Positions 5,428-56,607 of a stretch of DNA of 64,000 nt are shown here, one piece after another. The translations under genes and the position numbers were made by a program. The stretch's first letter is position 1; every line of letters starts with the position of its first letter. This stretch comes from Chondrocystis sp. NIES-4102. Its GTDB lineage: Bacteria; Cyanobacteriota; Cyanobacteriia; Cyanobacteriales; Xenococcaceae. The notes under the pieces were generated by a model. It worked only from the letters and a program-made list of their open reading frames with translations, was not told where the DNA came from and made no database searches. Where the stretch lies: assembly GCA_002368355.1 (NCBI GenBank), contig AP018281.1, positions 4,402,001-4,466,000 on the forward strand, given 5' to 3'.

Positions 5428-7149
5428 ATGGATCAAGAGTTGATTCTCGATGCTTTAAAAAGTGCTTGTGGTAATAGGAATTTTCGTTTTCAGTTAGTCA
5501 TTCAAAATACCAGGCTACATATATATATTAATCGTAAAGCAGAACTGATGGCGGATTATGATTTGCTAACTAATTTAGTTACTCAAGCGATCGCGCCTTT
5601 AAATTTGGAAGCTATTGATAGTATTTGGTTGTATAGTCGTAAATTGGGGACTATTGAGCCTGACTGGCAAACTTTTATAGATTTATCCGATATTAAGGAA
5701 TTTGATAATTTAGATAGTATTCCAACTTCACCTACTATTAATCAGGATCTTGATAATTTTAGAAGTCTGGAGGAATTTAAATCAAGCTCTGCTGATAATA
5801 ATAGTTTGGATGAGCAGATAGGTAATGAAAATTTAGATTTAAGTGAGTATTGTTTTATTCGCGATCGCTCTTTGTTAACTAGTGAGATAATTACGCCTGA
5901 TAAAGAAACTATCCGCTTAGTTAAGTTTTTTCATTATTTATCCCAGGATAATAAAACTAAAATATTACCAGCTTTAAATATTTACTTTGAGTCTGGGAAA
6001 ATTCCTAGAGTGGATAATTTATCTGCTGGAGTGCATAAATGGTATGAACAGATAACTCAATTAAACTATGAAGATGCTCATACTGTAGCTTTATGGCTTA
6101 GTCGTTACTGTTTTGATAGTGATGCAACCCTGGCGGATTTTAAAATTATGAGCCAAAAGACTGAACTTGCCAAGGTCACTAAGCAAAATAATACTAAGTA
6201 CAATAGTACTGTTAATCCTCCAGCCCAAGTAAATCAGTTACATCGAAAATATAGTAAGCTTGCTAGTATTAAAAAACTTTTGCTTCCCTGCGTTTGGGTT
6301 TGCGCTACATTATCCCTGATAATTTGGGGAATTTATGCCAACAATGGAATAAAATCTAGTGCGGTTGCGTCTATATGTGAAAATACTATAGGTTCTCGTG
6401 ATTATTGCCATTTAGCTGTAAATTTAGCTGGAATAAATGCCATAAAACAAACGCCTACTAAGATTTTTCCCTTAACTTCCACTACTACTCAAGCAGCTAA
6501 TTTAGGTTGTCAAAGATATGCTAACTTCAAAGCTGGAATTAAAAATGAATTAGATCCTAAACAAACCCCTGTAACATTTACTTATGGGGAAAAAGTTTTA
6601 CCACATATATATGTAGTAGAAACGCAACAAAAAAAGTGGCAACAACAAGGGGATGTGAGGGTAGGATGTGTTTATACTGTTGGGAGACAAGAGCGATCGC
6701 CCAGGTTATTAGCTGCGGATGTTATTGATAATAATTGGTCTTTAAAATTGGCTTATAAAGCCAGAAAATTACAGTTAAAAGATACTTTTGGCACTTACAC
6801 TTACATAATTAAGTTAGGTTTATATACAATATTTAGTGCTATTGCCATAGCGATCGCTTGTAAACTAAATTTAGGTATTCAAGTTAATCATGCTCAAGCA
6901 ATTTATCTACTAGCTTTATTACTTGGTATTGTGCAGTTAGTTATAGGAGAATTGCCAATATTAAATTTATTTAGTTATCTAGGCTTTTCTGCTGTAGTAA
7001 TTATATTTTGTAGTTTCTTATTTAAGAGTATACAAATATATTGGAATTTCAATTATCCAATAGCAGTTGTTGGTATTTTAACTATTATTGCTATTCAATC
7101 TTTGCTTTATGGCTTATCTTTAAAGTTAATCAATTATAGTTTGGGTTGA
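5428..7149 (+). CDS. Unknown cyanobacterial membrane protein
   Basis: Not recognised. The 573-aa protein has a soluble N-terminal region (about residues 1-90, starting MDQELILDALKSACGNRNF) that looks like a small alpha/beta domain. An acidic linker follows (about 90-150), then a helical segment and a first membrane helix near residues 287-306 (LLLPCVWVCATLSLIIWGIY). A loop of about 150 residues with several cysteines comes next, then a cluster of about four hydrophobic helices from residue 458 to the end. The cysteine pairs in the loop (CENTIGSRDYCH and one near GVGCVY) could form disulfides if it is periplasmic. It follows devA by 161 bp on the same strand. A sensor or transporter accessory role is only a guess. 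Confidence 0.7.
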   Translation: MDQELILDALKSACGNRNFRFQLVIQNTRLHIYINRKAELMADYDLLTNLVTQAIAPLNLEAIDSIWLYSRKLGTIEPDWQTFIDLSDIKEFDNLDSIPTSPTINQDLDNFRSLEEFKSSSADNNSLDEQIGNENLDLSEYCFIRDRSLLTSEIITPDKETIRLVKFFHYLSQDNKTKILPALNIYFESGKIPRVDNLSAGVHKWYEQITQLNYEDAHTVALWLSRYCFDSDATLADFKIMSQKTELAKVTKQNNTKYNSTVNPPAQVNQLHRKYSKLASIKKLLLPCVWVCATLSLIIWGIYANNGIKSSAVASICENTIGSRDYCHLAVNLAGINAIKQTPTKIFPLTSTTTQAANLGCQRYANFKAGIKNELDPKQTPVTFTYGEKVLPHIYVVETQQKKWQQQGDVRVGCVYTVGRQERSPRLLAADVIDNNWSLKLAYKARKLQLKDTFGTYTYIIKLGLYTIFSAIAIAIACKLNLGIQVNHAQAIYLLALLLGIVQLVIGELPILNLFSYLGFSAVVIIFCSFLFKSIQIYWNFNYPIAVVGILTIIAIQSLLYGLSLKLINYSLG

Positions 7150-51117: not shown

Positions 51118-51120
51118 ACT
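50998..51120 (+). pseudogene. TniQ-like N-terminal fragment
   Basis: The frame from TTG 50998 encodes SQTIPQRNRLYSFKPLGVGT and then PYTESI before losing similarity and stopping at 51145-51147, inside the repeat. The pattern R-x-RLY-x(2)-P-x-G-x-GTPY-x-ES is what I know from the N-terminus of TniQ/TnsD-like transposition proteins of cyanobacteria (RSRLY, GIGTPYVES). Only about 26 residues match, there is no ATG, and the reading ends at the island boundary, so it is a relic at best. Confidence 0.45.
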
Positions 51121-51154
51121 ATGCAAAATGGGCGATACTGGATTTGAACCAGTG
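51118..51154. repeat. attL: 37-bp direct repeat (tRNA-Val 3' fragment)
   Basis: Exact copy of 56525-56561; the flanking bases differ on both sides. It contains the T-arm and 3' acceptor strand of tRNA-Val (minus strand) plus 18 bp beyond it, and no other tRNA part. This marks the left junction of the integrated element. Confidence 0.93.
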
Positions 51155-51193
51155 AAAGAACTGTTTTTAACGCTGTAGCGTTACATCAAAGAC

Positions 51194-51237
51194 TTACTCA
51201 CTAACGTTTTGAACAGAAGTGAGTAAAAAGTGAGTAA
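51194..51237. promoter_or_regulatory. Left-end TGAGTAA repeats (candidate integrase arm sites)
   Basis: TTACTCA at 51194-51200 (inverted) and TGAGTAA at 51220-51226 and 51231-51237; the last overlaps the int start. Matching direct TGAGTAA copies lie near the right end (56454-56471). Confidence 0.5.
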
Positions 51238-52639
51238 GAATTATAATTACGAGATTGGTTACGAAAGTTTACAAAAGGATTTTGAAAGATACCAAAAACA
51301 AACGCCTAGAGGTGTAGGAATGACCCGTAAAGGGCAAAACATCTATTTACAGTTTAAAACGCCTAATACTGCCAGAAAACAGTATGCTTGTGAATGTCCG
51401 TTTACCCTAGACGGCATGGTTGAAGCATTAAAAAAAGCTAATAAGGTATCGAATGCTTTAAAGTCATTTACATCTGAGACTGAATTTTGGGCTTGGTATG
51501 ACAAAGAAATCAAAGAAGAAAGCCAGTTAGCGGACGATAAAATAACCTTTGCTGAAGCTATAGCCAAAGTAGAAGATGATTTCTGGAGTAGACTTAGTAG
51601 GACTAAGCGCAAGCGCGATCGTAATAATCCCAGTGATTTATCTAGTTGGTATGATACCTATGGAGGGTTTTACAAGCATCTACCACAAAATAAGAGTGTT
51701 AATTTAGCTGACATTCAGACAGTGATTGATAAACAAAAAAAAGGGACTAGAAGTTACAAATATGTCGTTTCTGCTATGAAAAAGTTAGTCCGAATAAATA
51801 AACGACAAGATATCTTAGAGGTACTAGACGATATTAATGTTACTCAAGCTGAATTTGCGGAATTACAAAGTATTAATTTAGAAGACTTCTTAAGCTGGCG
51901 AGAGAAGACGTTAGGTATAACAGCTAGCTTACATGAGAACGTTAATTTAGATACCCGTAAAGCATGGCTATGGGTGTTTTCTATGCAGGTAGTCTATGCT
52001 CTTAGAATTAGTGAAATATTCGCAATTAAAAACCTCACAGAATCATACAAGACTAAAGACGGTACTGTTATCCCAGCTTTAAACGACCTTGAGAATACTG
52101 ATAATCTGATTTACATAGGAGAAAAGACAGTACTGGGAACTACTGTTAAGACAGGGAACAGAATAGCTCGTCCTTTAATTCCTCCTAAATATCCTAACCT
52201 AATGGATAGACTAGATATTAAAATACCTTTATTGCCTAGTAATAAGCCTGAAAGTCAAAAAAGCGATACTTTAAAACGTTTTTATGCGACATCTGCCAGA
52301 AGGTATTTAGTTAAATGGAACGCTCCTTTTACTCAAACCCATGCTGATAGACATCTAGGGAACATCAACGGAATGCAAGCAGGAATACCGCTAGAGATAA
52401 GAGCGCAATCAATGGGACACACGCCAGCAATGAATGATTCAGTGTACAAAAAGCGTCAGTCAACACAGACAACAATAGACCTACTACTAAGTTCAAACAC
52501 TAGCGCGATCGACTTTGTAACAGCCTTAAATCAGGTCAAAAAACTAGTAGAGTCTCAACTATCACAAAGGGAATTTGCAGCCCAAATCTTGGCGATTATT
52601 TATCAGAAAAATCAGAAAGAAATAATCAAGCTACTCTAA
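51230..52639 (+). CDS. int: Tyrosine recombinase (integrase)
   Basis: Site-specific integrase, 469 aa, GTG start at 51230 inside a GTGAGTAAG repeat. The N-terminal ~110 residues are an arm-binding/SAM-like part (GVGMTRKGQNIYLQFKTP), followed by a core-binding helical region. The catalytic domain shows Arg259 in YALRISEIFAIKNL, H371-x-x-R374 (THADRHLGN), His397 in SMGHTPAMND and nucleophile Tyr406 in VYKKR. It sits 76 bp from attL, pointing away from it, as expected for the enzyme that made the 37-bp repeats. Followed by a strong terminator at 52680. A second lysine-rich loop (SRTKRKRDRNN) is unusual but not disruptive. Confidence 0.92.
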   Translation: MSKNYNYEIGYESLQKDFERYQKQTPRGVGMTRKGQNIYLQFKTPNTARKQYACECPFTLDGMVEALKKANKVSNALKSFTSETEFWAWYDKEIKEESQLADDKITFAEAIAKVEDDFWSRLSRTKRKRDRNNPSDLSSWYDTYGGFYKHLPQNKSVNLADIQTVIDKQKKGTRSYKYVVSAMKKLVRINKRQDILEVLDDINVTQAEFAELQSINLEDFLSWREKTLGITASLHENVNLDTRKAWLWVFSMQVVYALRISEIFAIKNLTESYKTKDGTVIPALNDLENTDNLIYIGEKTVLGTTVKTGNRIARPLIPPKYPNLMDRLDIKIPLLPSNKPESQKSDTLKRFYATSARRYLVKWNAPFTQTHADRHLGNINGMQAGIPLEIRAQSMGHTPAMNDSVYKKRQSTQTTIDLLLSSNTSAIDFVTALNQVKKLVESQLSQREFAAQILAIIYQKNQKEIIKLL

Positions 52640-52679
52640 ACAAGTAAGGTAATCAAACCTTAAAAAAGTAGCCAAAGTG

Positions 52680-52715
52680 ATCAAAGATTCCTTACAAGAG
52701 TCTTTGATTTTTTTT
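52680..52715 (+). terminator. Rho-independent terminator of int
   Basis: ATCAAAGA (52680-52687) pairs with TCTTTGAT (52701-52708), 13-nt loop, followed by seven more T. Confidence 0.88.
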
Positions 52716-53113
52716 GATGACAATAGCAAGTATTAGACTAAAAGCTAGCCTAAAGATGAAACACAACTAATGATTTTAAATCAGCTACCTATTGCCTTGA
52801 TCCAAGGGTAGATACGACAGCAAGTAAAATCAAACAAAGTATAAAAAGTAATTGATGGTAAAAGCATCAGTAATTGCACTGAAATTTACGATAATTTTCT
52901 AATAATAAATATCACGCTTAAATAGATAAAATACTAAATATAAAAAAGAAATTAAATTTACTTGACACATCCTAAAATGAGCTTATTATATATATAATCC
53001 TTCCGCCTACGCTCCAGGAGAAATATATATACTAGGGGTGGGTGGGCGTTAGCCAGGGAAAACTAATAAATATACATATAAGCTTTTACTTACTTACCGT
53101 TACCTTATAGTCA

Positions 53114-53168
53114 TTACCTAAATAGTGACACTAAATAGTGACACTATTTTATATACCCTCCCTTACTC
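53114..53168 (+). promoter_or_regulatory. Control module A (two TAGTGACACTA palindromes)
   Basis: TTACCTAAA, then TAGTGACACTA at 53123-53133 and 53136-53146 (13-bp step), then TATTTTATATA and CCCTCCCTTACTCACTA. The second site extends to the 15-bp palindrome AATAGTGACACTATT. Operator or iteron function is inferred. Confidence 0.7.
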
Positions 53169-53301
53169 ACTAACACTAGTAACAAACGATAATACTAAAA
53201 TACATCAGATAATCAATAATCATTATACTGATGCTAATAGTTGTGACTGCTAAAGTACGTTCTAATCAAATTACGTCCTATAGGTCGCATATATAATGAG
53301 T

Positions 53302-53454
53302 GATAATATTCCTTGGGGGCTGTCAAAAGAAAAAAACAGTCTGAGAGATAGTTAGTCAAGTACTAGCTCGTAGAGTCGAAGTGAAACGGAGATACTGGAC
53401 GAACGAGAGCGAAGACGTAGAATAACCAATAACAAGCCCCTAAAGAATGTTATC
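53302..53454. ncRNA. Candidate structured RNA closed by a 20-bp stem
   Basis: Positions 53302-53321 pair with 53435-53454 over 20 bp (17 Watson-Crick, 2 G-U, 1 mismatch). Inside are GTCT/AGAC (53339-53342 with 53413-53416), CTCGT/ACGAG (53367-53371 with 53403-53407) and a TAGT/ACTA hairpin (about 53353-53365), giving a branched fold. Just upstream, TATAAT at 53292-53297 with TTACGT about 15 bp before it could be a promoter on the plus strand. The alternative is a small frameshifted gene in the same bases (53296-53427). No known RNA family matched from memory. Confidence 0.45.
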
Positions 53455-53519
53455 TGAAATACCTACAGTCTGTAACCTAACAAAAAGCTTAAATTCATCT
53501 CAAGTCAATGTAAGGGGGC

Positions 53520-53563
53520 ATATATAAAATAGTGTCACTTTAAAGTGTCACTATTTAGGTAAC
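53520..53563 (-). promoter_or_regulatory. Control module B (30-bp near-perfect palindrome)
   Basis: Inverted copy of module A/D. AAATAGTGTCAC and its mirror form a 30-bp palindrome (53527-53556) broken only at the two central bases of the half-palindromes. On the minus strand it is preceded by CGTTACC and followed by TATTTTATATATGCCCC. Confidence 0.7.
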
Positions 53564-53654
53564 GGGTACACTAGTGGTTAATCTACAAAGTAAATAAGTA
53601 TTTTTTTATACATACCCAAGAGAATCTAACTAAGGTAATTAGTGAGTAAGGGAG

Positions 53655-53700
53655 GGTATCTAAAAACGTAATACGTTTTTATATTACGTTTTAGGTAACG
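53655..53700 (-). promoter_or_regulatory. Control module C (same flanks, different palindrome)
   Basis: Minus-strand flanks CGTTACCTAAAA and ATACCCTCCCTTACTCACTA match module A, but the core is the 19-bp palindrome AAAAACGTAATACGTTTTT (53662-53680) plus a half-site ATTACGTTTT. So the operator was exchanged while the frame of the module stayed. Confidence 0.7.
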
Positions 53701-53871
53701 GGTATAGGGTAACTGTAAGTAAAGCTTAGTTCCAATTTCTACGAGTACTTGTATCCTAATTCGACAGCTTAAAGTTAAGCAGCTATAACAGTACAGGAAT
53801 ACTAGGTTAGGGTAAACAGACAAAAAAAAATAAGCCCTGTCAAGAGAACTCACTTTTAATCACTAAGCATC

Positions 53872-54870
53872 ATGATAAAACCAAATATCCAAAGCAGCAA
53901 CAAGCAGTTATTAGTTGTAGAAAATTGTTCTAGTAATACCACGCTATCCCTTCATAATACTCTTTCTCTTACTACTAATAGCTTTAACTATCTTTTACCT
54001 ACTAAAACTTACTCCCAATTTAAATTTCTCAAGAATTTTATTCACTTAGATTATCTACGTTTAAGTAGTAATAATTTAACTAAGAAATCTTTTGACTCAC
54101 TAGTAGATTTTGTGTTTGATAAGCAGGAAACAAAAACAATAAACAAGCCTTGGCATCCTGACCCTAAGATGCCCCAAAGTAAGAAATATCAAAACATAAT
54201 TACATCAAGTTCAGGAATAACTTTAGGTTATACAAAGAAAGCCAAAAATCGAGGTAAAAACATTAGACACGTCTATGACATAATGCTTGACCTATCAGGG
54301 GCTTATTTTGCCAAATTAAGCCTACTAAAACAGCAAAAGGTTATTAGCTACCTAAACATTAATTGGACGTTTAAATGCCATCGGATTGATGTAGCCATAG
54401 ATGATTATTCACATAAGCTTATACCTGTTATTGAGATGAAAAAAGCTTTTAAGCTTGGTTACAATTTTGGGTTTTCGGTAATAGATGATAGCTATTTCAA
54501 AATCACTGATAATCAGTTTGAAGGTACTTTAGCCATAGGTTCTAGACGTTCAAGTTTATTTATCAGAATCTACACCAAGGGTAAAGATTTTGTCAGATAT
54601 GAAGCTGAATTGAAAAGGCAAAAAGCCCAAGGGTTATTTAATCAAATAGCTAACTTAGAAGTGGATAAGACTCTAGCTAATGATTTAATTGTAAGTTTTG
54701 CTATAGTCTTAGCTGAAGCTGCTTTATCTAGCATAGACTTTAGGAATAAAGATAATATTAGCAGTCAGAAGAATATGACCAAGAAAAGAACTGATAGGTT
54801 ATTTTTCTGGCAAGATTTTATAGATAAGGTATTAGTAACTATTGATAATCAGCTACTTGATAATAATTAA
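53872..54870 (+). CDS. rep: Rep_trans-family rolling-circle initiator / relaxase-like protein
   Basis: Probable replication initiator of 332 aa. The central part matches the Rep_trans (RepC/NicK/MobT) pattern: CHRIDVAIDDYSH (Arg171, Asp residues for metal), TLAIGSRRSSLFIRIYTKGK (Gly223, Tyr234) and VRYEAELKRQKAQGL. These proteins nick the double-strand origin of rolling-circle plasmids or the oriT of integrative elements. I cannot fix the catalytic Tyr; Ala stands before IGSRR where an aromatic residue is often found, and Tyr234 is kept. The N-terminal ~55 residues are poorly conserved. It is the only gene besides int in the element; a terminator follows at 54942. Confidence 0.75.
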   Translation: MIKPNIQSSNKQLLVVENCSSNTTLSLHNTLSLTTNSFNYLLPTKTYSQFKFLKNFIHLDYLRLSSNNLTKKSFDSLVDFVFDKQETKTINKPWHPDPKMPQSKKYQNIITSSSGITLGYTKKAKNRGKNIRHVYDIMLDLSGAYFAKLSLLKQQKVISYLNINWTFKCHRIDVAIDDYSHKLIPVIEMKKAFKLGYNFGFSVIDDSYFKITDNQFEGTLAIGSRRSSLFIRIYTKGKDFVRYEAELKRQKAQGLFNQIANLEVDKTLANDLIVSFAIVLAEAALSSIDFRNKDNISSQKNMTKKRTDRLFFWQDFIDKVLVTIDNQLLDNN

Positions 54871-54941
54871 TTTATCTTGAGGGTTAAAGATGACTATAAG
54901 GATACATTAAGCATTGTTTGAAGGGTATACAGGTATTAAGT

Positions 54942-54978
54942 ACTGGCAACTTGAATAAACATTATTGCCAGTCTTTAT
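54942..54978 (+). terminator. Terminator-like hairpin after rep
   Basis: ACTGGCAA (54942-54949) pairs with TTGCCAGT (54965-54972), then CTTTAT. 72 bp past the rep stop. Confidence 0.65.
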
Positions 54979-55057
54979 CTAGCTGTAATTTATCTTGATT
55001 AGGGTGAATATAACCTACAGTCTGTAAGGTTAATTAAGTACTATTGAGCTTACATTA

Positions 55058-55099
55058 AGCATCTAGATGCTCGTTAATTGACCAGCTATGAATTCATAG
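55058..55099. promoter_or_regulatory. Twin perfect 14-bp palindromes
   Basis: AGCATCTAGATGCT (55058-55071) and CTATGAATTCATAG (55086-55099), 14 bp apart, with TTGACC between them. Their perfect symmetry suggests operator or recombination sites. Confidence 0.6.
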
Positions 55100-55177
55100 T
55101 AAGTGTACTTAGAGATATTGCTTTTGTTGGTTTTATTGGTAGCTGACTAATATATCTATGAGTAGGTTCAGATTACG

Positions 55178-55206
55178 GGTTAGTTGTAATAAACTAACCT
55201 TCTTTT
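55178..55206 (+). terminator. Isolated rho-independent terminator
   Basis: GGTTAGTT (55178-55185) pairs with AACTAACC (55192-55199), 6-nt loop, followed by TTCTTTT. No protein gene ends before it, so it may close a small RNA that starts near the twin palindromes. Confidence 0.7.
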
Positions 55207-55741
55207 AAAACAATTGGAACATGGGACTATTTTGTATCTGTTGGATATTAAGCCATGCGGTTATTTATTCTATCTGTTTTGGTTGGTTGAGGGTTTGAGC
55301 TTTATTTGTATATCTTCTGAGTCTATGGTTATTTCGTTAAGAGTAAGGGTTAGTTTTATTGCTTTTGTAAGTAATGGACGTTAATTAGAAATGACTAAAT
55401 GTAGGGGTATATAACATCTATCGTCTTTACTAATTGTCGATAGATACATAGCAGTAGTATTTAATTGGTTTTTGGTAGGATGTGTTTTAGTCAATAACAG
55501 ATGTGAAAAATAAGCGTCTAACCTTTTTGTTTATTTGAAGAGTCATAAAAGATATTAGACTGTCTCTACTAGCGATATAAAGCTCATTCTAGATTACTTC
55601 TTTTTAATGAACAGTAGAAAGACTTACATGAGTATTTACGTTCTCAACCTATAGTACTTGAGATACCTACTTATATATCTACTCGTTATCTTCAGCGTTA
55701 TTTCTTAATCATCTCTGGCTAATTTAGACAACACCTATATC

Positions 55742-55903
55742 TTGTCCGCCTGTGAGCAATACCAAAAAAATAACGACCTACAGATAAAGATGGTTTCAAT
55801 GATTGCTGACCCTGGCGATAAGGACGAAAGGCTAGCATTACTGACAGAGCGTCAGCATGAAATCAAAAAGATTGAATTAGCCCTAAAAGCTCTAGCTAAC
55901 TGA
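55742..55903 (+). CDS. Possible small ORF in the element
   Basis: A short frame with TTG at 55742 or ATG at 55790. It reads SACEQYQKNNDLQIKMVSMI, then DPGDKDERLALLTERQHEIK and KIELALKALAN. The second half is a clean amphipathic helix with heptad spacing of Leu/Ile, more protein-like than its surroundings. No RBS is evident. It is 37 aa from the ATG or 53 from the TTG and may be a small DNA-binding or dimerising protein. Confidence 0.4.
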   Translation: MSACEQYQKNNDLQIKMVSMIADPGDKDERLALLTERQHEIKKIELALKALAN

Positions 55904-55922
55904 ACCTAACAGATAGTTAAGT

Positions 55923-56085
55923 AGGGGTTATCGGGTGGCATTCCCTGATAGCCCCTAGGGCTGGGGAGGGGGTAGTGGAAATAGCTTATATAAAGACCGC
56001 CGAATTTAGGCGATATGAACCCCTGGGGACTGGTGAGGAATTAAGCAGACTACTTAGTAATTTGTCTATACGAGTTCGTCTAGAC
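55923..56085. ncRNA. Candidate structured segment with multiple hairpins
   Basis: AGGGGTT (55923-55929) pairs with AACCCCT (56018-56024) and encloses TATCGGG/CCCTGATA, AGCCC-CTA-GGGCT and CGCC/GGCG hairpins, a four-way-junction layout. Just after it, 56064-56085 forms GTCTA-T-ACGA / TCGT-C-TAGAC. It could be an RNA or a single-strand origin of rolling-circle replication. Confidence 0.4.
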
Positions 56086-56110
56086 AGAAGTATGTACAGA
56101 AGTAGGGGGC

Positions 56111-56156
56111 GTTACCTAAATAGTGTCACTATTTAGTGTCACTATTTTATATATGC
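56111..56156 (+). promoter_or_regulatory. Control module D (two TAGTGTCACTA palindromes)
   Basis: GTTACCTAAA followed by TAGTGTCACTA at 56121-56131 and 56134-56144 (13-bp step, as in module A) and TATTTTATATATGCC. Closest to module B in its right flank. Confidence 0.7.
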
Positions 56157-56368
56157 CTACCCTGACTAAACAGAATCAGAAAAGTTAGTTGTGTTACTAG
56201 GACGTATTAGACTAATTAGTTTCCCACTAGCATTTAAATGACCTACAAGGCACTTTGTTAAGGTATCTGGTAGATTACTTAAAGACGAGTATTACCCCGT
56301 CTTTATTTTGTACCTACTAGTACAGGAGTAGTAAATGTAATCCGAGACTGTAATTATTCGGTTACTTG

Positions 56369-56394
56369 TAAAACACAATAATCTAAGTGTTTTA
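56369..56394. terminator. Terminator-like AT hairpin
   Basis: TAAAACAC (56369-56376) pairs with GTGTTTTA (56387-56394), 10-nt loop. Weak, lacking a separate T-run. Confidence 0.3.
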
Positions 56395-56453
56395 ATTGCT
56401 AGGGTACAAGCGTATTAGTTTACTCTAGTTTCTAGGTGTGTTATTTTCAGTTT

Positions 56454-56471
56454 TGAGTAAGTTTTGAGTAA
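56454..56471. promoter_or_regulatory. Right-end TGAGTAA repeats (candidate integrase arm sites)
   Basis: Two direct GTTTTGAGTAA units (56450-56471) carrying TGAGTAA at 56454-56460 and 56465-56471, about 55 bp inside attR and matching the left-end copies. Confidence 0.5.
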
Positions 56472-56501
56472 GAGTGTCTGCCTTACAAGGAGGATATCAC
56501 T

Positions 56502-56576
56502 GTGAAAATCAGTAGTATTAAGGCACTATGCAAAATGGGCGATACTGGATTTGAACCAGTGGCATCCTGCTTGTAA
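56502..56576 (+). CDS. Possible 24-residue peptide crossing attR
   Basis: AAGGAGGA (56487-56494) lies 7 bp before GTG 56502, the best RBS in the element. The frame MKISSIKALCKMGDTGFEPV continues into the tRNA and stops at 56574-56576 (ASCL then TAA). In the excised circle it would instead continue as KELFLTL and stop about 80 bp before int. It may act as a leader for int in the circular form. Confidence 0.35.
   Translation: MKISSIKALCKMGDTGFEPVASCL
56525..56561. repeat. attR: 37-bp direct repeat inside tRNA-Val
   Basis: Exact copy of 51118-51154. It covers the 3' end of tRNA-Val (T-arm and acceptor) and 11 bp beyond, so integration leaves the tRNA gene whole. Confidence 0.93.
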
Positions 56577-56607
56577 GGCAGGCGCTCTACCGCTGAGCTA
56601 ATCGCCC
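56536..56607 (-). tRNA. tRNA-Val (anticodon UAC)
   Basis: On the minus strand the cloverleaf folds fully: acceptor GGGCGAT/ATCGCCC, D-arm GCTCAGCGGTAGAGC, anticodon stem CCTGC/GCAGG with loop CTTACAA (TAC), T-arm ACTGG-TTCAAAT-CCAGT, discriminator A. CCA is not encoded. It is the target of the element to its left. Confidence 0.97.

Follow-up and report, generated by a model that had tools for sequence, protein, structure and literature searches.

How can a stretch of DNA that encodes little besides an integrase and a replication protein maintain itself at a tRNA gene of a cyanobacterium? The question is raised by a locus of Chondrocystis sp. NIES-4102, here called element E1, in a window of 64,000 nucleotides (contig AP018281.1, positions 4,402,001 to 4,466,000), which is the whole stretch of DNA analysed and in which features are numbered (Table 1). 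E1 is 5,407 bp long and is bounded by 37-nt direct repeats that are 100% identical, one of which lies at the 3' end of an intact tRNA-Val (tac) gene, the arrangement of an element that integrates at a tRNA. The genes int and rep occupy 2,409 bp, and the only other open reading frames (ORFs) of at least 60 aa have 89 and 75 aa. An earlier note, made from the letters alone, had described this 5.4 kb as bounded by a perfect repeat, with a tyrosine recombinase at one end, a Rep_trans protein in the middle and no other sizeable gene, and our analysis bears out each of these points. Beyond that note, we found that the chromosome holds the rep core at two more places and that E1 contains a set of hairpins. 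E1 is probably an integrating rolling-circle plasmid built of exchangeable modules.

The Rep protein passes the Pfam model PF02486 (Rep_trans) narrowly (E 3.1e-7, 30.6 bits, cut-off 29.6). Its relatives at loci L061, L047, and L063 also exceed this cut-off, and the relative at L066 falls below it. A profile of six Rep sequences matches the solved structure of RepSTK1 (4cij, E 1e-8) and, more weakly, RepDE (4cwe, 0.0067; 4cwc, 0.011); a search of solved structures with the single Rep and Int sequences returned nothing meaningful. Tyr234 aligns with the Tyr in the R-I/F-Y-x-K motif of RepDE and RepSTK1, is invariant in all six aligned Reps (that of E1 included), and lies in the stretch aligned with 4cij, 4cwe, and 4cwc. 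We take the Tyr at this position to be the catalytic nucleophile.

For Int, no Pfam integrase model (Phage_integrase) matched at E<=1, and the PHROG scan gave a weak integrase match alone (E 0.073). Because family models failed, we used the catalytic residues in an alignment of 11 recombinases, after a twelfth row, L046, had been dropped for a stop within its reading frame. R259, K307, R374, and Y406, which we assume to be catalytic residues of a tyrosine recombinase, are invariant in 11/11 sequences. The second catalytic His (GH motif) is H397 in Int and is kept in nine of the rows, with Thr in L061 and L047. The integrases of these two loci pass Phage_integrase; those of L013 and L063 fail it but match the integrase family phrog_1. 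Predicted structures were too poor for use (mean predicted local distance difference test score 49 for Rep and 37 for Int).

A search of the own genome (5.0 Mb, 7 contigs) revealed three chromosomal Rep copies with identical proteins, in E1 and in two further elements, E2 (locus L012) and E3 (locus L013). Positions 53290-55960 (2,671 bp) are 99.6% identical in E2 and E3, with 11 and 10 mismatches and no gaps, non-coding DNA included. Outside about 53176 and 56172 the similarity of E1 to the other two ends, save for the hairpins and a 155-bp stretch right after int (83%). E2 and E3 carry a different integrase, int2 (493 aa), which is 21% identical to Int in the alignment. Thus, the same core is joined to different integrases and sits at different sites, and rep core and integrase therefore travel separately. 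When E2 is compared with E3, identity in the int2 region varies like a mosaic (63-99% per 100-column step), against 99-100% in most of the core, and their small right-end ORFs are unlike each other (that of E2 weakly matches a ribbon-helix-helix model, below the cut-off). E2 interrupts a monooxygenase gene (L012 4864-11362) with a 9-bp repeat, TCATGATAA; judged by eye from its protein, this gene is ssuD-like. When the flanks of E2 are joined the ssuD-like frame is open, with no stop, so that excision would restore the gene. E3 is intergenic and has a weak candidate repeat of 7 bp; the 16 kb surrounding either E2 or E3 yielded no tRNA. Of the claim in the earlier note that E1 is an autonomous, cargo-free integrative element, the lack of recognised cargo stands, but the element is not alone: the genome has three such elements, and the other two lie outside tRNA genes and use another integrase.

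Int-rep pairs also occur in related cyanobacteria. At E<=0.001, relatives of Rep were found in 9 of 100 genomes including the own one (8/99 others), all of the same GTDB family, and in 2 of 386 genomes of a phylum-wide sample, again including the own one. A recombinase or its remnant adjoins rep at six of the nine loci elsewhere (L047, L051, L061, L063, L064, and L067). L061 is a 3.8-kb int and rep element at tRNA-Ser(tga) with 60-nt imperfect repeats, and L063 has int, rep, and a 16-bp repeat. At L064, an int-rep deletion has left a remnant in tRNA-Met, with a repeat of 31 bp; at L051, rep is spread across two frames and accompanied by ORFs that by eye look transposase-like, and L067 holds a rep fragment.

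A tBLASTn search of 72,556 plasmids with Rep, together with searches from two intermediate Reps, links the family to small plasmids. The direct matches are the cyanobacterial plasmids pCYLM01 (2,175 bp) and pFIS3754-01 (2,849 bp). The intermediate searches (nine records from one Rep, 54 from the Rep of locus L083) led to pCB2.4, pCB of another Synechocystis, pFIS3754-02, pSTK1, and many Firmicute plasmids. Small Synechocystis plasmids are considered to replicate by the rolling-circle mode in an excerpt of PMC10667661, and these tiny-plasmid relatives favour an initiator over a relaxase role for Rep. A tree of 12 Reps places the six element Reps together in a single group (support 89/88); pFIS02, a plasmid Rep on a long branch, is on the element side, and four plasmid Reps and one Rep linked to a Zot-like gene are on the other. 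The L083 locus is a 6,075-bp contig (G280:C3) in which a 2,461-bp unit that encodes a Rep_trans protein recurs in tandem about two and a half times; in all likelihood it represents a small plasmid or circle that was assembled as a tandem.

Four 30-nt hairpins lie in E1, two of them at or near the edges of the shared core. The palindromes have a common frame, TTACCT and TAKATAYSCC or near it. All four score at least 11, and the 58.3 kb of the window outside E1 contain one palindrome at a score of at least 10 and none at 11 or above; 100 shuffles of E1 gave a mean of 0.15 hairpins and a maximum of two. The exact 45-bp frame, from which two of the four E1 hairpins deviate, occurs eight times in the genome (5 Mb), always within E1 to E3 (8/8), and a reversed control pattern does not occur. 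In a gap-free alignment of the seven distinct copies, 96.4% of the cells are paired, a figure that rests on conserved flanks and seven sequences only, and 12 cells are changed on both sides. Pairing, double-changed cells, and the covariation score were reached by none of 500 shuffles; the number of pairs changed on both sides (33/500) and of further pair types (260/500) is unexceptional. Shifting the partner by 1-3 columns lowers the pairing to 26-50%.

Related elements carry 27-30-nt versions of these hairpins. In a table of 16 distinct stems, 168 of 176 cells are paired, a value partly built in, as the hairpins were chosen as palindromes. The stem table comprises 18 of 31 hairpins, after removal of five E2/E3 duplicates, one from L061, two from L065, and five from plasmids. 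That differing, covarying arms occur inside one element is an argument for a hairpin, of DNA or RNA, rather than for one sequence-specific operator. The hairpins are not general to integrase elements: among 20 loci (219.5 kb) around other integrase relatives, none encoding this Rep, nine contain a total of 15 hairpins scoring at least 11, none of which (by eye) has TTACCT or a AGATACGC-like frame. Nor are they universal in the Rep group, as four of seven plasmids with related Reps have none at the threshold. The free plasmid pFIS3754-01 (L069), which has a related Rep, contains 24-nt palindromes at 1942-1965 and 2107-2130 with like flanks and different complementary arms.

We propose that the integrase excises the 5.4 kb at the 37-bp repeats as a circle, which would re-insert at the tRNA-Val 3' end and keep the gene whole. 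The circle would be copied by the Rep_trans protein, nicking one strand via its tyrosine. The modules would follow one another as the integration module (att site, arm sites, and int), hairpin a, the rep core, hairpin d, and a variable right end, and rep cores may be swapped by recombination between elements with different integrases. The sharing of the core across integrase types suggests interchangeable, hairpin-edged parts. It is conceivable, and in our estimate quite unlikely, that Rep or a host protein acts on the hairpins such that the hairpin-edged core leaves as its own small circle and enters another element, a mobile replicon among integration modules. New cells could be reached through conjugation, carriage in virus particles, or transformation.

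Table 1. Positions of E1 features in the window
Feature	Position	Strand	Remark
attL, left copy of 37-bp repeat	51118..51154	+	displaced tRNA-Val 3' end plus 11 nt
putative integrase arm sites TTACTCA (51194), TGAGTAA (51220, 51231)	51194..51237	.	
int, tyrosine recombinase, 469 aa, GTG start	51230..52639	+	beside left repeat
hairpin a, 30 nt	53120..53149	+	just left of shared core
rep core common to E1, E2, and E3	53176..56172	+	98.7-98.9% over 3.0 kb
hairpin b, 30 nt	53527..53556	-	
75-aa ORF, uncertain reality, GTG start, between int and rep	53626..53853	-	overlaps hairpin c
hairpin c, 30 nt	53663..53692	-	
rep, Rep_trans protein, 332 aa, mid-element	53872..54870	+	
53-aa ORF, uncertain reality, TTG start	55742..55903	+	
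hairpin d, 30 nt	56118..56147	+	just inside right edge of shared core
putative integrase arm sites, TGAGTAA x2, near right end of E1	56454..56471	+	
attR, right copy of 37-bp repeat	56525..56561	+	overlaps tRNA-Val 3' end
tRNA-Val (tac), attachment gene, intact	56536..56607	-	3' end covered by right repeat

Several results weigh against an integrating rolling-circle plasmid. None of the hairpins near rep matches a known nick site, no double-strand origin was identified, and no xis gene was recognised in E1. A query made of the joined flanks, representing the empty tRNA-Val site, had no spanning match in 29 other genomes, because the left flank of E1 is not conserved. At L062, L065, and L066 the integrase profile detected no recombinase, and rep is at most 1.6 kb from a contig end in each. 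Assembly polishing could have made the three cores look more alike than they are. The direct search of the plasmids yielded just the two records named above, at 24% and 36% identity, and the element Reps form a separate group that is not nested among the plasmid Reps. Typing with MOB-suite assigned pSTK1 to MOBT and classified 38 of the 54 plasmid records obtained with the L083 Rep as mobilizable, two as conjugative, and 14 as non-mobilizable; the relatives of Rep are therefore not simple replicons alone. In ICEBs1, a single protein serves as both initiator and relaxase, according to part of PMC5357655.

The last points lead to an alternative in which E1 is an integrative mobilizable element (IME), its Rep_trans protein being chiefly a MOBT-like relaxase and its circle passing through the pore of a conjugative helper. 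Besides the MOBT type of pSTK1 and the mobilizable plasmids, precedents speak for it: excerpts of PMC5357655 describe streptococcal IMEs that combine a tyrosine integrase with a relaxase of PF02486 and in some cases lack a coupling protein, and portions of PMC7563843 report that one such Rep_trans protein is necessary for mobilization and mention an IME whose putative Rep_trans relaxase has no helix-turn-helix (HTH) domain. We nevertheless consider it unlikely. Rep has no HTH domain detectable with Pfam or NCBIfam at E<=1, whereas MOBT is described in a passage of PMC11389934 as HTH plus Rep_trans, a point that is not decisive. Equally indecisive, the VirB4-type ATPase (PF12846), the sole conjugation marker searched, has no match in the own genome and was found in 10 of 14 controls. 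Moreover, no coupling protein was recognised in E1 (ORF list and Pfam), and all five cyanobacterial plasmids with Rep relatives that were checked are typed non-mobilizable.

An Int relative resides in a 15.15-kb element of genome G392, and we therefore also considered that E1 is a satellite of a virus-like element, sharing the integration module of its helper and travelling in helper particles. Close integrase relatives (60-69% identical) indeed adjoin phage-like genes in larger elements such as this one, and the arm-site layout at L038 is that of E1. Yet Pfam and PHROG scans recognised no capsid, packaging, or interference gene in E1, and no such helper is found in the own genome, where, apart from itself, Int matches only a short remnant and both copies of int2. 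Pattern-based scans of IMG/VR viral contigs found no relative of Rep, Int, int2, or one protein of the virus-like element, 50,697 phage records contain no relative of Rep, and E2 and E3 use another integrase, all of which makes the satellite distinctly improbable. That E1 is instead a decayed or inert remnant, its core kept alike only by gene conversion among chromosomal copies, would fit the existence of decayed members (L064, L051, L067, and, in the own genome, remnants of int close to tRNA-Leu and tRNA-Ser). This is very unlikely, as both int and rep of E1 have uninterrupted frames and retain their catalytic residues, the two 37-bp repeats match perfectly, and the reading frames of E2 and E3 are likewise intact.

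E1 has partial counterparts among known systems. The statement in the earlier note that no named family has this layout was too strong: the closest described layout is that of streptococcal IMEs with Rep_trans relaxases (Rel_PF02486/MobT), which, in excerpts of PMC5357655, share with E1 the tyrosine integrase, direct repeats, the lack of mating-pore genes, and swapping of integration modules. E1 differs from them in its phylum, in having no HTH domain found and no VirB4-type ATPase in the genome (by one model), in the tiny-plasmid initiators among the solved or plasmid relatives of its Rep, and in its hairpin-bounded core. Our literature search, confined to open PMC papers, found no described family with the layout of E1, which is not proof of absence. 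Plasmids of the pSTK1/pCB2.4/pCYLM01 type share a homologous Rep_trans protein and have few other genes, but they exist as free circles (1.9-2.8 kb) in which no integrase is annotated, whereas E1-type elements are integrated at att sites. Actinomycete integrative and conjugative elements (AICEs; pSAM2 and kin) likewise combine an integrase with a rolling-circle initiator, often at tRNA 3' ends, and exchange modules, as part of PMC3218068 describes. They differ in also encoding an FtsK-like Tra, for which E1 has no ORF of FtsK/SpoIIIE-type size apart from int and rep, and in their RepSA, which has HUH motifs and is not a Rep_trans protein. The Sulfolobus plasmid pSSVi presumably resembles E1 in its small size. 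According to a section of PMC8371274, it is an integrated plasmid whose free form rises upon virus infection. It is archaeal, and its SSV-type integrase gene is split on integration, whereas int of E1 stays whole.

These data suggest the existence, in one cyanobacterial family, of a family of integrating replicons of 3.8-5.4 kb, a very small size for DNA potentially capable of both insertion and replication, and they link tiny cryptic cyanobacterial plasmids to integrated elements. The three natural copies, with one replicon and two integrase types, offer a ready system for the study of module exchange, and the hairpins provide a specific sequence for testing. An integrating replicon of two genes might also be turned into a vector for cyanobacteria in which genetic engineering is difficult.

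As the earlier note inferred, E1 may live mostly from non-coding control DNA. The arm-site heptamer occurs four more times within E1 (51840, 52329, 53163, and 53643). The spacing of the left cluster (26 + 11 nt) recurs in L038 and L143 and as 27 + 11 nt in L039; L040 has just its two right-hand sites, as TGAGCAA. The 89- and 75-aa ORFs, both on the minus strand, have no Pfam match near the cut-off (for the latter, none at E<=1). The 89-aa ORF is antisense to int, and the 75-aa ORF is also present in L012 and L013, whose DNA there is near-identical. The 53-aa ORF is identical in the E2 and E3 copies, as is its DNA, and its best match in the other compared loci has an E of 0.019. Only the tRNA reached the gathering score in an Rfam scan. 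A 92-bp non-coding stretch (53332-53423) is 87% identical in L061 and is better conserved than rep. We do not claim it as an RNA, since a 45-bp part also lies beside another integrase and the fold z-scores are modest (-1.50 and -2.59).

A Rep_trans gene near a Zot-like morphogenesis gene was found in a cyanobacterium of the same order (G030, L082 9100-12674), in what is possibly a filamentous prophage. We rejected an inovirus satellite as an explanation of E1, as this Rep, the one Zot-linked case found, groups with a plasmid Rep, not with the element Reps.

At E<=0.001, and with weak matches counted, Int has relatives in 26 of 60 genomes including the own one (25/59 others). In G391 (locus L143), the related integrase is preceded by the same tRNA-Val fragment as attL and has the same TTACTCA/TGAGTAA layout. 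The Int relative of G392 (60% identical) is part of the 15.15-kb element, which sits in tRNA-Leu(taa) and encodes an endolysin, with the rest mostly unmatched genes. This virus-like element, extending from L040 5700 to L089 (G392:C1 about 4384700-4399875), encodes a 793-aa coiled-coil-like protein, and ORFs like its own, judged by eye, are found in G387 (L038 and L039) and G391 (L085). The own genome retains the start of a related integrase as remnants near tRNA-Leu(tag) (L014 about 6300-7119) and tRNA-Ser(gga) (L015 5114-5407), signs of past occupants.

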